Source: Bacteroidales bacterium
GTDB taxonomy: Bacteria; Bacteroidota; Bacteroidia; Bacteroidales; Paludibacteraceae
Assembly: GCA_015061165.1 (NCBI GenBank)
Contig: SUXC01000009.1
Span: 1 to 64,000, forward strand
Length of the DNA: 64,000 bases
Direction: 5' to 3'
This document shows positions 21,909 through 24,862 of this stretch, one piece after another. The notes below the pieces were generated by a model. It was not told where the DNA came from and searched no databases. It saw only the letters and a list, made by a program, of their open reading frames with translations. Position numbers and translations under genes: made by a program. Numbering within the stretch: the first letter of the stretch is position 1; the number at the start of each line of letters is the position of its first letter.

Positions 21909-23099
21909 TCACTTGCGTGGAGCAGGCACGTAGGTTGGATAGAACACTTGTTGCAAACTATCCACTATGTTGTGATGGTTCTTCAGCAACACATTCGATG
22001 GGAAATAGCACTCACCTGTGATACCTGGGATAGTACGGTTGAGGCGCAACTGACGGCAAATCTCATTGCCTTCGTTCCAAGCCGCAGCCATCTTTGGGTT
22101 ACCCAAGTGGTATGGAGCCATACCAATATACACGCGGCACTTGTCAGTAGCATGTTGAGCCCACCAGTGAGCAAGAATCTCATAATCAGCCACTTTTTTA
22201 CCAATCTCCCAATAGAGTTGTGGTACTACATAGTCAATCCATCCCTTCTCCATCCAGAGGAGAATATCGGCATACAATTGGTCGTAGTTTTGAAGTCCGT
22301 TGGTCTCGCTACCACGAGGGTCGTTCTTCTTATTGCGCCAGATACCAAATGGAGAGATACCAAATTGCACCTCTGGTTTGATACTATTGATAGTATTGCG
22401 CACTTGCTCAATGGCCAAGTTTACGTTGTCGCGACGCCAATCGCCTACGTTGTCAAAGCCACGTGGGTCTTTGGCAAATGCCTCAGCATCTGGGAACTCC
22501 TGACCAGAAACAGGATAAGGATAGAAATAGTCATCCATGTGAATAGCCTGAATATCGTAGCGAGTAACGAGGTCTGCCACCACTTTGCAGAGGAAATCGC
22601 GTGTCTCTTGCAAATGAGGGGCAAAATACCATTGCGTACCATACTTCAAGAACCATTCAGGATGCTTGTGGTAGATGTGATTAGGAGCAATATCCTCTAT
22701 CTTGCTTCCACCGCCTGTTACACGGTATGGGTTAATCCATACGTGTACATCTATACCACGTTTATGTGCCTCGGCGCAAACGAACTCCAATGGGTCGTAG
22801 GTCGCAGCCTCGCCTTGCTTGCCTGTGAGCCAAGCGCTCCAAGGCTCTAACTCCGATTTGTACAACGCATCCGCAGTAGGGCGTACTTGGAAAACGATAG
22901 CATTCAGATTCATCTTTTGGAACTCATCCAACATAGCCACCAAATCGGCTTTCTGTTGCTCATAATTGCCGATAGCCGCCTTAGTTGGAAAATCAATGTT
23001 AGCCACGGTGCTCACCCATGTAGCACGAAAATATGGCTCCGTTGCAAACGACAAGCATGCACAAGCCACAAACAGGGATGTTAAAAAGGTCTTTTTCAT
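21909..23099 (-). CDS. GH10-like glycosyl hydrolase (DUF187/GHL10, YngK-like)
   Basis: 396 residues with a signal peptide (KKTFLTSLFVACACLSFA). The DUF187/GHL10 barrel is clear: YFRATWVSTVANIDFPTK near the start, NAIVFQVRPTADALYKSELE, GIDVHVWINPYRVTGG, and IQAIHMDDYFYPYP with the Asp pair expected in the catalytic region. Members are secreted glycosidases thought to act on peptidoglycan-like or other glycans; the substrate is not established here. It is co-oriented with the esterase gene 40 bp upstream and ends near the shared terminator. Confidence 0.9.
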   Translation of the reverse strand: MKKTFLTSLFVACACLSFATEPYFRATWVSTVANIDFPTKAAIGNYEQQKADLVAMLDEFQKMNLNAIVFQVRPTADALYKSELEPWSAWLTGKQGEAATYDPLEFVCAEAHKRGIDVHVWINPYRVTGGGSKIEDIAPNHIYHKHPEWFLKYGTQWYFAPHLQETRDFLCKVVADLVTRYDIQAIHMDDYFYPYPVSGQEFPDAEAFAKDPRGFDNVGDWRRDNVNLAIEQVRNTINSIKPEVQFGISPFGIWRNKKNDPRGSETNGLQNYDQLYADILLWMEKGWIDYVVPQLYWEIGKKVADYEILAHWWAQHATDKCRVYIGMAPYHLGNPKMAAAWNEGNEICRQLRLNRTIPGITGECYFPSNVLLKNHHNIVDSLQQVFYPTYVPAPRK

Positions 23100-23139
23100 G
23101 TAATGTAGTATTTGTTAATTCTTAATTCAAATTCAGTAA

Positions 23140-23979
23140 TTAGAATATTCGCTGCGCAAATATTTTTAGATAGTCCATCCAATTCTGCCACGAGTGTCCG
23201 CCTGCGGACTCATGGTACTCGTATGGGTATTGTTTTTCATCCAAGTATTGGCGATAAATCACATTGTCTTCGTATAGAAAGTCCTCTACACCACAAGCAA
23301 TCCAATACAATTGTGGAGGATTAGCAAACTGCTGTGCAAGCAGAGTTTCTGTCTGCTGATATGCCGGTTTGTCGGAGAGAGCCAATGCGCTCATCTCTAT
23401 AGTGCGCTCAGCGTGAGGTTGTTTGGTATGTGGCACATATAGTGCGGAGAAGATACCTACATAGTCAAAACTTTGATTGAGCAATGCTGCTGTGTGCATG
23501 GTGTGGAATCCGCCCATAGACAATCCTGCAATAGCGCGATGTTGTTTGTCATTGATGGTACGGTAGTGCGATTCTGTCCACGCGATGAGTTGGCTGAAGT
23601 TCTCTTCGAAGGTGCTTTCCATCCACAACCGCGATTCTGGATTGTAGTGTTTGCCTGTTTGCTCCAGATAGCCATTAGGCATTACTACAATCATAGGTTT
23701 GCACAATTCGTTGGTAATCAGCGAATCGAGGATAGCTTTGGCACAACCTTTGGTTAGCCAACCAGCCTCATCATCGCCACTGCCATGTAGCAGATAAAGT
23801 ACAGGATAATCTTCTTCGGAGGTAGCATATCCTGCTGGCAAATAGACTGCTACACCTGCCTCTCCGATGCTGGAAGGATAGGATGTTACAACGACTTGAC
23901 TCTCTTGGTTTGTAAGTTTTGCCTTTGGGCAACAGCTGATGCATACAATCAGCAATAGGAGTAGTAATTTGCTTTTCAT
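23140..23979 (-). CDS. Esterase-family lipoprotein (alpha/beta hydrolase, PF00756 type)
   Basis: 279 residues. Lipoprotein-like signal peptide with CISCC near residues 13-17. The esterase-D/feruloyl-esterase fold shows YPVLYLLHGSGDDEAGW, MIVVMPNGYLEQTG, the nucleophile elbow AGLSMGGFHTM (Ser about 154), an acid region at ACGVEDFLYEDN, and His in SAGGHSWQNW. It probably cleaves acyl or feruloyl esters on carbohydrates at the cell surface, which suits the glycosidase gene downstream in the same operon. Its substrate is inferred only from family. Confidence 0.9.
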   Translation of the reverse strand: MKSKLLLLLLIVCISCCPKAKLTNQESQVVVTSYPSSIGEAGVAVYLPAGYATSEEDYPVLYLLHGSGDDEAGWLTKGCAKAILDSLITNELCKPMIVVMPNGYLEQTGKHYNPESRLWMESTFEENFSQLIAWTESHYRTINDKQHRAIAGLSMGGFHTMHTAALLNQSFDYVGIFSALYVPHTKQPHAERTIEMSALALSDKPAYQQTETLLAQQFANPPQLYWIACGVEDFLYEDNVIYRQYLDEKQYPYEYHESAGGHSWQNWMDYLKIFAQRIF

Positions 23980-24022
23980 GGTTGTATAAAATTCGAAATT
24001 CTTAATTCAACATTATTTTGCT

Positions 24023-24031
24023 GCAAAGGTA
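24023..24031 (-). promoter_or_regulatory. Promoter of the esterase-glycosidase operon
   Basis: On the minus strand TACCTTTGC, 44 nt before the esterase ATG. TTG-containing sequence lies about 20 nt upstream. Confidence 0.8.
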
Positions 24032-24109
24032 GTGAATTATTTTGAGTTGTGCAAGTGTTTTGTGTGTTTTTTATTCAATTTGTATTTAGGTATTCATATT
24101 TCAGTTCTC

Positions 24110-24177
24110 AAATTCCCTACAGATTTCGGGAGCACCATAAGACATATCTGGGACTTCTATGGGCTTTCTGTAGCTTT
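24110..24177. repeat. Short copy of an intergenic repeat (see 24576-24792)
   Basis: The ends of this 68-bp stretch match the two ends of 24576-24792: CCTACAGATTTCGG against CCTACAAGTTTCGG, and GACTTCTATGGGCTTTCTGT identical in both. The longer copy carries about 150 bp more in the middle, namely the two 77-nt structured units. Confidence 0.7.
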
Positions 24178-24277
24178 CTATAAACGTGTCTCTATAATAA
24201 TGCTGCAAAAATCTTCGGCGCGGAAGTGGTTTTGTGCCGAAAGTTGGAGAATGTGGAGGGTAAAATGGTATATACAA

Positions 24278-24326
24278 CACGCGGGAAGTATAGTATTTAC
24301 AAGACTTCCCGCGTGGGTGTATTTTT
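24278..24326 (+). terminator. Strong hairpin, terminator-like on the plus strand
   Basis: CACGCGGGAAGT (24278-24289) and ACTTCCCGCGTG (24304-24315) pair perfectly around a 14-nt loop. They are followed by GGTGTATTTTTTT. No plus-strand gene precedes it, so it may end an unrecognised plus-strand RNA or serve the minus strand. Apart from this and the repeats, I see no gene from 24032 to 24407. Confidence 0.55.
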
Positions 24327-24407
24327 TTGAAAAAAGTTTTCTTCGCGCGAAGATTATGCCGAAGGTTATGCCGAATGTTTGGCTTAATTATAATAGATTT
24401 ATTCTAT

Positions 24408-24502
24408 CTAAAAGGAAGTGATTCGACTATTGATGAGTCTTTGTAGGCGTCTTTTCCGCTCGATTTTCATACTTTGTGGGGTATTTTTGCGGTTATCCGC
24501 AT
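24408..24502 (-). CDS. Two overlapping tiny ORFs behind an orphan promoter (tentative)
   Basis: Beginning 10 nt after the promoter at 24512-24520, the minus strand reads an 11-codon ORF (MRITAKIPHKV, 24467-24502). This overlaps by ATGA a 20-codon ORF (MKIERKRRLQRLINSRITSF, 24408-24470). The second peptide is strongly basic. Both are short enough to occur by chance. They could be a translated leader-type peptide pair, or the transcript may be a noncoding RNA. No ribosome-binding site can be judged, because Bacteroidota often lack Shine-Dalgarno sequences. Confidence 0.3.
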
Positions 24503-24511
24503 TTTTACCCT

Positions 24512-24544
24512 GCAAAGGTAGTACTTTTTTGTGATATAGACAAA
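24512..24544 (-). promoter_or_regulatory. Orphan promoter in the noncoding block
   Basis: On the minus strand TTTG (24541-24544), exactly 20 nt, then TACCTTTGC (24512-24520): the same geometry as the promoters of known genes in this window. No recognisable gene lies in its path before the divergent promoter at 24023. Confidence 0.7.
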
Positions 24545-24603
24545 TATTTTTATGAATTTGTTGTGTTTTTGCCGAAAATTACCTACAAGTTTCGGAACCT
24601 GAA

Positions 24604-24757
24604 GGAGTGCGACGGAACGCACTCCGAGCGCAGCGCCCAAATAGTCCCCACTCTGAGGAAATAGCGCAAGCATAGATGAAGAAGTGCCTTGAATGGCACT
24701 TCGAGTATTGCTCCCGAACTATCCCCATAGTGAGGAAGTAGAGCAATACATAGAACA
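24604..24757. ncRNA. Two adjacent 77-nt structured units with covarying stem (candidate RNA)
   Basis: Units 24604-24680 and 24681-24757 align without a gap over most of their length at roughly two-thirds identity. Each begins with an 8-bp stem: GGAGTGCG/CGCACTCC in the first and GAAGTGCC/GGCACTTC in the second. The two base-pair changes between the copies are compensatory. Unit 2 has a further 9-bp stem GTATTGCTC/GAGCAATAC, of which only four pairs hold in unit 1. Both share the loop words TCCCCA and TGAGGAA. The transcribed strand is unknown. Confidence 0.5.
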
Positions 24758-24862
24758 GATAACTAAGACTTCTATGGGCTTTCTGTGGCTTTTGTGCTTT
24801 CACTTTTCTTTTTCCCTTTTTTCCGAAGGGATACCGAACCCTTGCCGAAGGAGCAAAAAGCA

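Follow-up and report, generated by a model that had tools for sequence, protein, structure and literature searches.

What are two adjacent 77-nt units, sharing their loop words and differing by compensated changes in their first stem, doing between an esterase gene and the end of a BspA-type gene? They lie in a 64,000-nt stretch of a Bacteroidales genome of the Paludibacteraceae (analysed as a whole and called the window here), and a sequence-only reading had taken them for either a structured RNA or a palindromic repeat, in both cases under selection and not the product of neutral duplication. Our answer, to which we give a probability of roughly 0.6, is that the pair is the two-module form of a BOX-like modular interspersed repeat that belongs to a Bacteroidales genus of the Paludibacteraceae and is moved or exchanged as folded DNA by a putative enzyme.

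The two units are joined head to tail where the sequence-only reading had put them, their bounds (Table 1) being set by covariance model R1, which was built from the eight own-genome copies of alignment A4. Both of the first-stem changes claimed for them are there and compensated, pair 4-23 going from G-C to A-T and pair 10-17 from G-C to C-G, and the loop words TCCCCA and TGAGGAA are kept in both units; the pattern TCCCCAN{2,6}TGAGGAARTAG has two occurrences in the window and none in 100 shuffles. An alignment said to run base for base over most of the length proved a generous description, as the two units agree at 66% of 64 ungapped positions. On the + strand, unit 1 folds with a z-score of -2.6 and unit 2 with one of -7.3, and unit 1 carries one unpaired cell (T.C) in hairpin 2 as well as an A in place of a G in the otherwise usual GA motif. 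Nor is the end of the BspA gene the only neighbour of interest, since the esterase gene also matters: between it and unit 1, 89 nt from the latter, is the promoter-like sequence TTTG...TACCTTTG. With this presumed esterase promoter reading left and the BspA-type gene on the - strand, neither neighbour transcribes the + strand.

Table 1. Features around the two units (positions in the window)
Feature	Position	Strand	Basis or remark
Esterase gene	23140-23979	-	PF00756
Class A element without a module, oriented like the units, 3' arm joined directly to 5' arm	about 24107..24180	+	repeat D1 85%; zero-module row L005
Promoter-like sequence: -33 TTTG, -7 TACCTTTG, region approximate	24490..24520	-	reads left, away from units, to esterase gene
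Class A 5' arm, TACCTACAAGTTTCGGAACC	24580..24599	+	common to module-free and one-module copies elsewhere
Unit 1 of composite, type GGAGTGCGACGGAACGCACTCC	24602..24678	+	R1 E 1.1e-20; alignment A4
Unit 1 hairpin 1: 8 bp, 6-nt loop	24604..24625	+	fold; pair counts
Unit 1 hairpin 2: outer pairs, CC/GG, tandem GA motif (AA/GA here), CCCC loop, 5-nt one-sided bulge	24628..24671	+	pair counts
Unit 2 of composite, type GAAGTGCCTTGAATGGCACTTC	24679..24756	+	R1 E 8.4e-20
Unit 2 hairpin 1	24681..24702	+	unit fold z -7.3
Unit 2 hairpin 2: outer stem GTATTGCTC/GAGCAATAC, CC/GG, GA facing GA, inner stem ACTAT/ATAGT, CCCC loop, 5-nt bulge	24705..24749	+	fold; pair counts
Class A 3' arm, AGATAACTAAGACTTCTATGGGCTTTCTGTGGCTTT	24757..24792	+	repeat D1; 3' arm common to other sites
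BspA-type LRR gene	ends 24952, 195 nt right of units	-	PF13306

Related genomes have matches to pieces of window 24110-24367 in many places. Within the stretch 24107-24367, 3' of the module-free class A element, there is a near-perfect inverted repeat, CACGCGGGAAGT...ACTTCCCGCGTG, at 24278-24315. The closest relative, G062, was considered as a clean empty counterpart of the focal locus and rejected as such: it is 95% identical to the window across 22600-24082 and lacks 24083-24706 yet retains a truncated unit 2, which points to rearrangement rather than clean excision. Nor did copy positions compared between the own genome (G000) and G062 reveal a common site, though the two genomes differ elsewhere by more than the focal 5%.

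Each module runs from hairpin 1 (8 bp, 6-nt loop) through a GAG spacer and hairpin 2 to CATAGA, and hairpin 2 follows a plan of outer stem, CC/GG, GA facing GA, a 5-bp inner stem, a CCCC loop and a one-sided 5-nt bulge. Among the eight copies of A4, both sides are changed in 9 of 21 pairs. From the loci of a pattern scan, 86 matches (71 distinct) have standard pairs in 98.9% of 1450 cells, and in the alignment of the 71, which was fitted to the model and so leans towards pairing, 13 of 21 pairs are changed on both sides and the covariation score was reached by 0 of 500 shuffles; slid controls were 21-55% paired. Double changes are plain also in an unaligned list of 61 other matches. Sequence drifts, then, while the hairpin folds stay, and selection acts on structure. 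A plain repetitive element had been expected to show many copies with random stem changes; copies are indeed many, albeit with stem changes that are compensated and not random. This part of the sequence-only reading therefore stands, the same pairs being kept by double changes across copies and species, and of the two options that it left side by side the palindromic DNA repeat is favoured.

R1 matches were found in 20 of 37 genomes of the genus (1-13 copies in each positive genome) and in none of 24 genomes that represent the order's other families, while close genomes gave 4-17 matches in 7 of 7. Further copies in the own genome had come from a pattern scan, and eight of these make up A4. 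With R1 the own genome yields nine copies of full length, a degenerate one (E 1e-5) and one contig-end piece, besides a match at E 3 that is taken as chance. When genome contigs were scanned for the hairpin-1 pattern, at least 80 loci were returned; among the matches listed, all are from MAGs or isolates of Bacteroidales, Bacteroidia or Paludibacteraceae, and the source, where the title names one, is the herbivore digestive tract. Viral contigs gave 0 exact pattern matches and phage no match, and plasmid carriage was dismissed, one short weak match inside a Serratia traF gene being judged chance. Several copies lie at or near contig ends. The starts of own-genome contigs C19 and C29 carry the same class B sequence (see below), so that these contigs are probably neighbours broken at the repeat.

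The two-unit composite occurs in other places too. We found it at five distinct sites in five genomes (the window, L066, L145, L178 and L265), with the units joined head to tail at TGAAG. Between sites, identity is 88-95% among first units and 92-100% among second units, whereas unit 1 and unit 2 of the same site share only 61-66%. Since first units resemble first units and second units second units, with the two units of one place far apart, the pair is not a local duplication; and since the 1.5-kb flanks of the sites do not align except for short repeat pieces, the composite is old and has itself been dispersed. At a sixth place, L073, the first unit is degenerate.

The module is also part of larger elements. 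Clustering of the right-hand flanks of 134 distinct sites gave two large clusters, with 42 and 29 members, besides ten small ones and 28 singletons. The cluster of 29 (class A) includes the window; its 5' arm ends in GACC and its 3' arm runs to GGGCTTTCGGTGGC. Between these arms the number of modules varies: nine elements without a module were identified by regular expression (ten rows were listed, one of which, L121, has a module just upstream and was not counted) and two more by eye among unsorted rows, 24 elements found by expression plus L121 have one module, and a two-module form is also present. By eye the class A arms have short complementarity only, and in a check for terminal inverted repeats the consensus fold left them unpaired. 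Class B, the cluster of 42, has a fixed make-up about 150 nt long: GTG, the module, GGCG with three hairpins and a GTACAGGGTA loop, and an end in CCGCC. Its 3' domain covaries as well (7 of 17 pairs changed on both sides, 100% of 220 cells paired), and of the 16 matches to a model of this domain, R2, 15 come directly after a module. Hence the module is a portable part, found between at least two different sets of arms.

Some variants and neighbouring repeats may be recorded here. A short form of the unit (49 nt), with a plain, short hairpin 2 that lacks the GA motif and the bulge, occurs at L050, L051, L060, L075, L076, L102, L108, L125, L149 and L174. In four class B elements (L107, L116, L128, L157) a 40-50-nt GGGGTCCCCGACCAATTT...GTGGGGTG palindrome lies within the loop of the first 3' hairpin, and a palindrome like it precedes the short module form in L050, L060, L075 and L076. 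The class B element also often has next to it a different intergenic repeat that is frequent, made up of AAAAAGTGCTTTTTATTAAGATT and then CT-rich sequence (e.g. L068, L162, L170).

At two sites the module is present in one genome and missing from another. Empty L252 and filled L172 are 98.7% identical along 239 bp of the left flank and 96.5% along 171 bp of the right, and empty L238 and filled L180 are 98.0% identical along 398 bp of the left flank. The sequence is GACC-ACCATA-(A/G)GA where the module is missing and GACC-TGAAGG...CATAGAACAAAACA-(A/G)GA where it is present. Filled class A sites thus replace about 6 nt (ACCATA) instead of simply adding a module, so that loss by deletion is as possible as insertion. 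Two further candidates were set aside: L129 and L156 as a filled and empty pair, the right flank of which does not align, and a class B empty site in G085 at pckA, where the difference is confounded by surrounding CT-rich repeats. For target-site duplication, 33 class B sites showed no excess of common flank words, and in class A a direct repeat of 9-10 nt ending in GACC flanks the module at L033 and L121 only.

As to genomic context, the units are intergenic: an ORF of at least 200 aa is overlapped at only 2 of 134 distinct sites. Where both neighbouring genes were found (90 of 134 sites) their orientations are evenly spread (++ 31, -- 26, -+ 17, +- 16). Within 350 nt, promoter-like sites that read away from the unit are present in 46 of 126 left flanks and 25 of 117 right flanks, and sites that read towards it in 9 of 126 and 2 of 117, with shuffle means of 1.8-3.0 (for the 9 of 126 inward count, mean 3.0 and maximum 7). 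The 350-nt flanks replaced 150-nt ones, which are in part taken up by the tails of class A and B, and the outward excess on the left side is present in scans of both lengths. The unit is no terminator, to judge by runs of four or more T within 12 nt 3' of it at 1 of 134 sites and of four or more A on its 5' side at 2 of 134, and an element-borne gene was likewise rejected, there being no widely common neighbour and the largest protein clusters covering 4 of 40 loci. One protein of about 280-300 aa, putatively Bro-N-like, is found near the unit at 4 of 40 loci (L062, L071, L072, L078).

Bias in replication strand is at most weak. The strand that carries the unit is the C-rich one in 15 of the 20 pieces of a first set (p 0.04; 14 of 19, p 0.06, without the C29 contig end), in 20 of 32 of a second (p 0.22; 23 of 35 with the three pieces under 9 kb that the test omits) and in 34 of 51 of both together (p 0.024). 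The test also omits the second, opposite copy in L402, weak hits and contig C1 of G014, and it counts once the two neighbouring copies of G014 C2 and, likewise, the two units of a composite.

Is it then DNA or RNA that folds? In 112 distinct sequences, 2214 cells divide into 2164 Watson-Crick, 22 G.T, 10 A.C and 18 others, whereas 18 tRNAs from the same loci, a small control, have G.T in 28 of 395 cells (7.1%) and A.C in none. G.T is therefore far rarer in the units (1.0%; Fisher p 2e-11; p 0.001 for the ratio), with the reservation that related copies do not contribute independent cells. More G.U would be expected of an RNA that changes through G.U intermediates, so that the constraint looks like Watson-Crick pairing of DNA; and because the GA/GA motif and the loops are conserved in a strand-specific manner, such DNA, if it is read, would be read as the folded + strand. 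Rare wobble, intergenic position, promoters that point away and the lack of preference in gene orientation together favour a DNA hairpin under selection over an expressed RNA, and in appearance the element is a repeat that moves or is moved, not an RNA gene. The conservation of loops, GA/GA and CATAGA on the + strand, as in an RNA, and the 9 of 126 sites with a promoter-like motif reading into the unit are counterpoints to this mobile-DNA reading. So are the lack of target-site duplication around class B, the replacement of ACCATA at filled class A sites and the weakness of the strand bias that single-stranded mobility linked to replication should produce.

On another view the units are a structured non-coding RNA in many copies, acting in trans or in cis, whose + strand would form two hairpins with tandem G.A and bind a protein or ligand. 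It would account for the strong covariation, for loops and a GA/GA motif conserved on one strand and for a multi-hairpin class B domain with its conserved GTACAGGGTA loop. We nonetheless consider it doubtful in view of the scarcity of G.U pairs, promoter-like sites that mostly face outward, units without orientation relative to genes, and modules missing at homologous sites. Rfam 15 speaks in the same sense: only tRNAs reach the gathering score in the window and, in 11 loci searched at E<=5, again only tRNAs do, with no match over a unit even at that E value. Function could also be denied altogether. The units would then be neutral remnants in which the structure is maintained either because template switching corrects quasi-palindromes or because copies convert one another. 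Stem arms that change jointly with few intermediates are what such copying of one arm from the other in replication could yield, but it seems highly improbable as an explanation of loops, GA motif, CATAGA and bulge position, all conserved outside the stems, and of modules that occur in defined arm contexts.

If folded DNA is what is recognised, known systems offer two candidates. A REP/BIME element mobilised by a RAYT (TnpA-REP) transposase would fit dispersed intergenic palindromes, composites and compensated stems; it is very unlikely here, as PF01797 is absent (E<=0.001) from the own genome, for which RAYT/REP was rejected on this ground, and from G014 with its 13 copies (among 61 genomes of the genus the family has a match in 22 and exceeds the cut-off in 18), no GTAG or CGTC tag is seen at the hairpin foot, which in the 61 hits read is TGAAG, and copies number about 10 and not hundreds. 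A folded attC-like site used by a tyrosine recombinase might explain an imperfect hairpin 2 with one-sided bulge and free stem sequence, and equally the head-to-tail joining at TGAAG. We give it very little credence, given that integron integrase (TIGR02249) exceeds its cut-off in 0 of 4 genomes, that weaker matches resemble tyrosine recombinases of the ordinary sort, which each of 14 control genomes shows as well, and that no cassette-like ORF separates the units of the composite. A bolder proposal makes the module a mobile unit coded by its folding alone, for which a putative non-Y1 enzyme of Bacteroidota would read paired single-stranded hairpins regardless of stem sequence and insert, remove or concatenate the module in several unrelated repeat frames, giving rise to mosaic hairpin elements; this we put forward as a tentative and rather unlikely idea.

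For the BOX-like modular repeat that we prefer, the following course of events may be envisaged. The constraint would fall on the + strand when folded as single-stranded DNA, be it at a replication fork or as an intermediate of transfer or transposition. A putative enzyme, supplied in trans and, by the searches above, neither a Y1 (RAYT/IS200) transposase nor a true integron integrase, would recognise the paired hairpins, leaving stem sequence free while pairing and the loop/GA motif are fixed, and it may excise, join or copy the module beside a site of the GACC...AGGAGATCT type or within the whole element. The host would tolerate the copies on account of their position, which is between genes and for the most part upstream of promoters, not within leaders.

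The closest known architecture appears to be BOX, and we file the element by analogy as a small modular interspersed repeat that may work like it. In streptococci, boxB is present in variable number between boxA and boxC, and in S. suis the same boxB lies between two sets of arms with boxE/F variants (PMC3049150). The likeness extends to constant outer arms around a structured inner module in variable number (0-2 in class A), to one inner module in different arm sets (here class A and class B) and to a dispersed, clustered, intergenic habit with strong secondary structure. Yet the phylum is another, and the likeness drawn here is one of architecture; the inner module here is two hairpins with free stem sequence, seen 0-2 times; terminal inverted repeats were not recognised in the present element; and about 10 copies compare with 125 BOX elements in one pneumococcus. 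REP/BIME/REPIN elements are likewise dispersed intergenic palindromes that form composites, have compensated stems and a proposed single-stranded DNA substrate (PMC3733652), but differ from our repeat, which has no GTAG/CGTC tag, no Y1 transposase in its own genome, head-to-tail pairs and low copy number. The BrickBuilt MITE of Porphyromonas gingivalis is nearer in taxonomy (Bacteroidales), is intergenic in about 19 copies and is modular, with a leader, tandem inner repeat and tail (PMC4596501). By its description it differs in that the inner repeat is a 23-nt minisatellite, segments of it hold bidirectional promoter elements and it has small inverted ends (PMC4596501).

Searches of the literature and Rfam found no description of the present repeat family. 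As far as these searches reach, we are thus dealing with an undescribed modular hairpin repeat family of herbivore-gut Bacteroidales, with Watson-Crick covariation that is unusually clean. It also serves as a warning against equating strong covariation with RNA when the sequence is an intergenic repeat. And if it were true that an enzyme reading nothing but folding moves the module, this would be a sign that DNA is mobilised by something other than the RAYT system now known.
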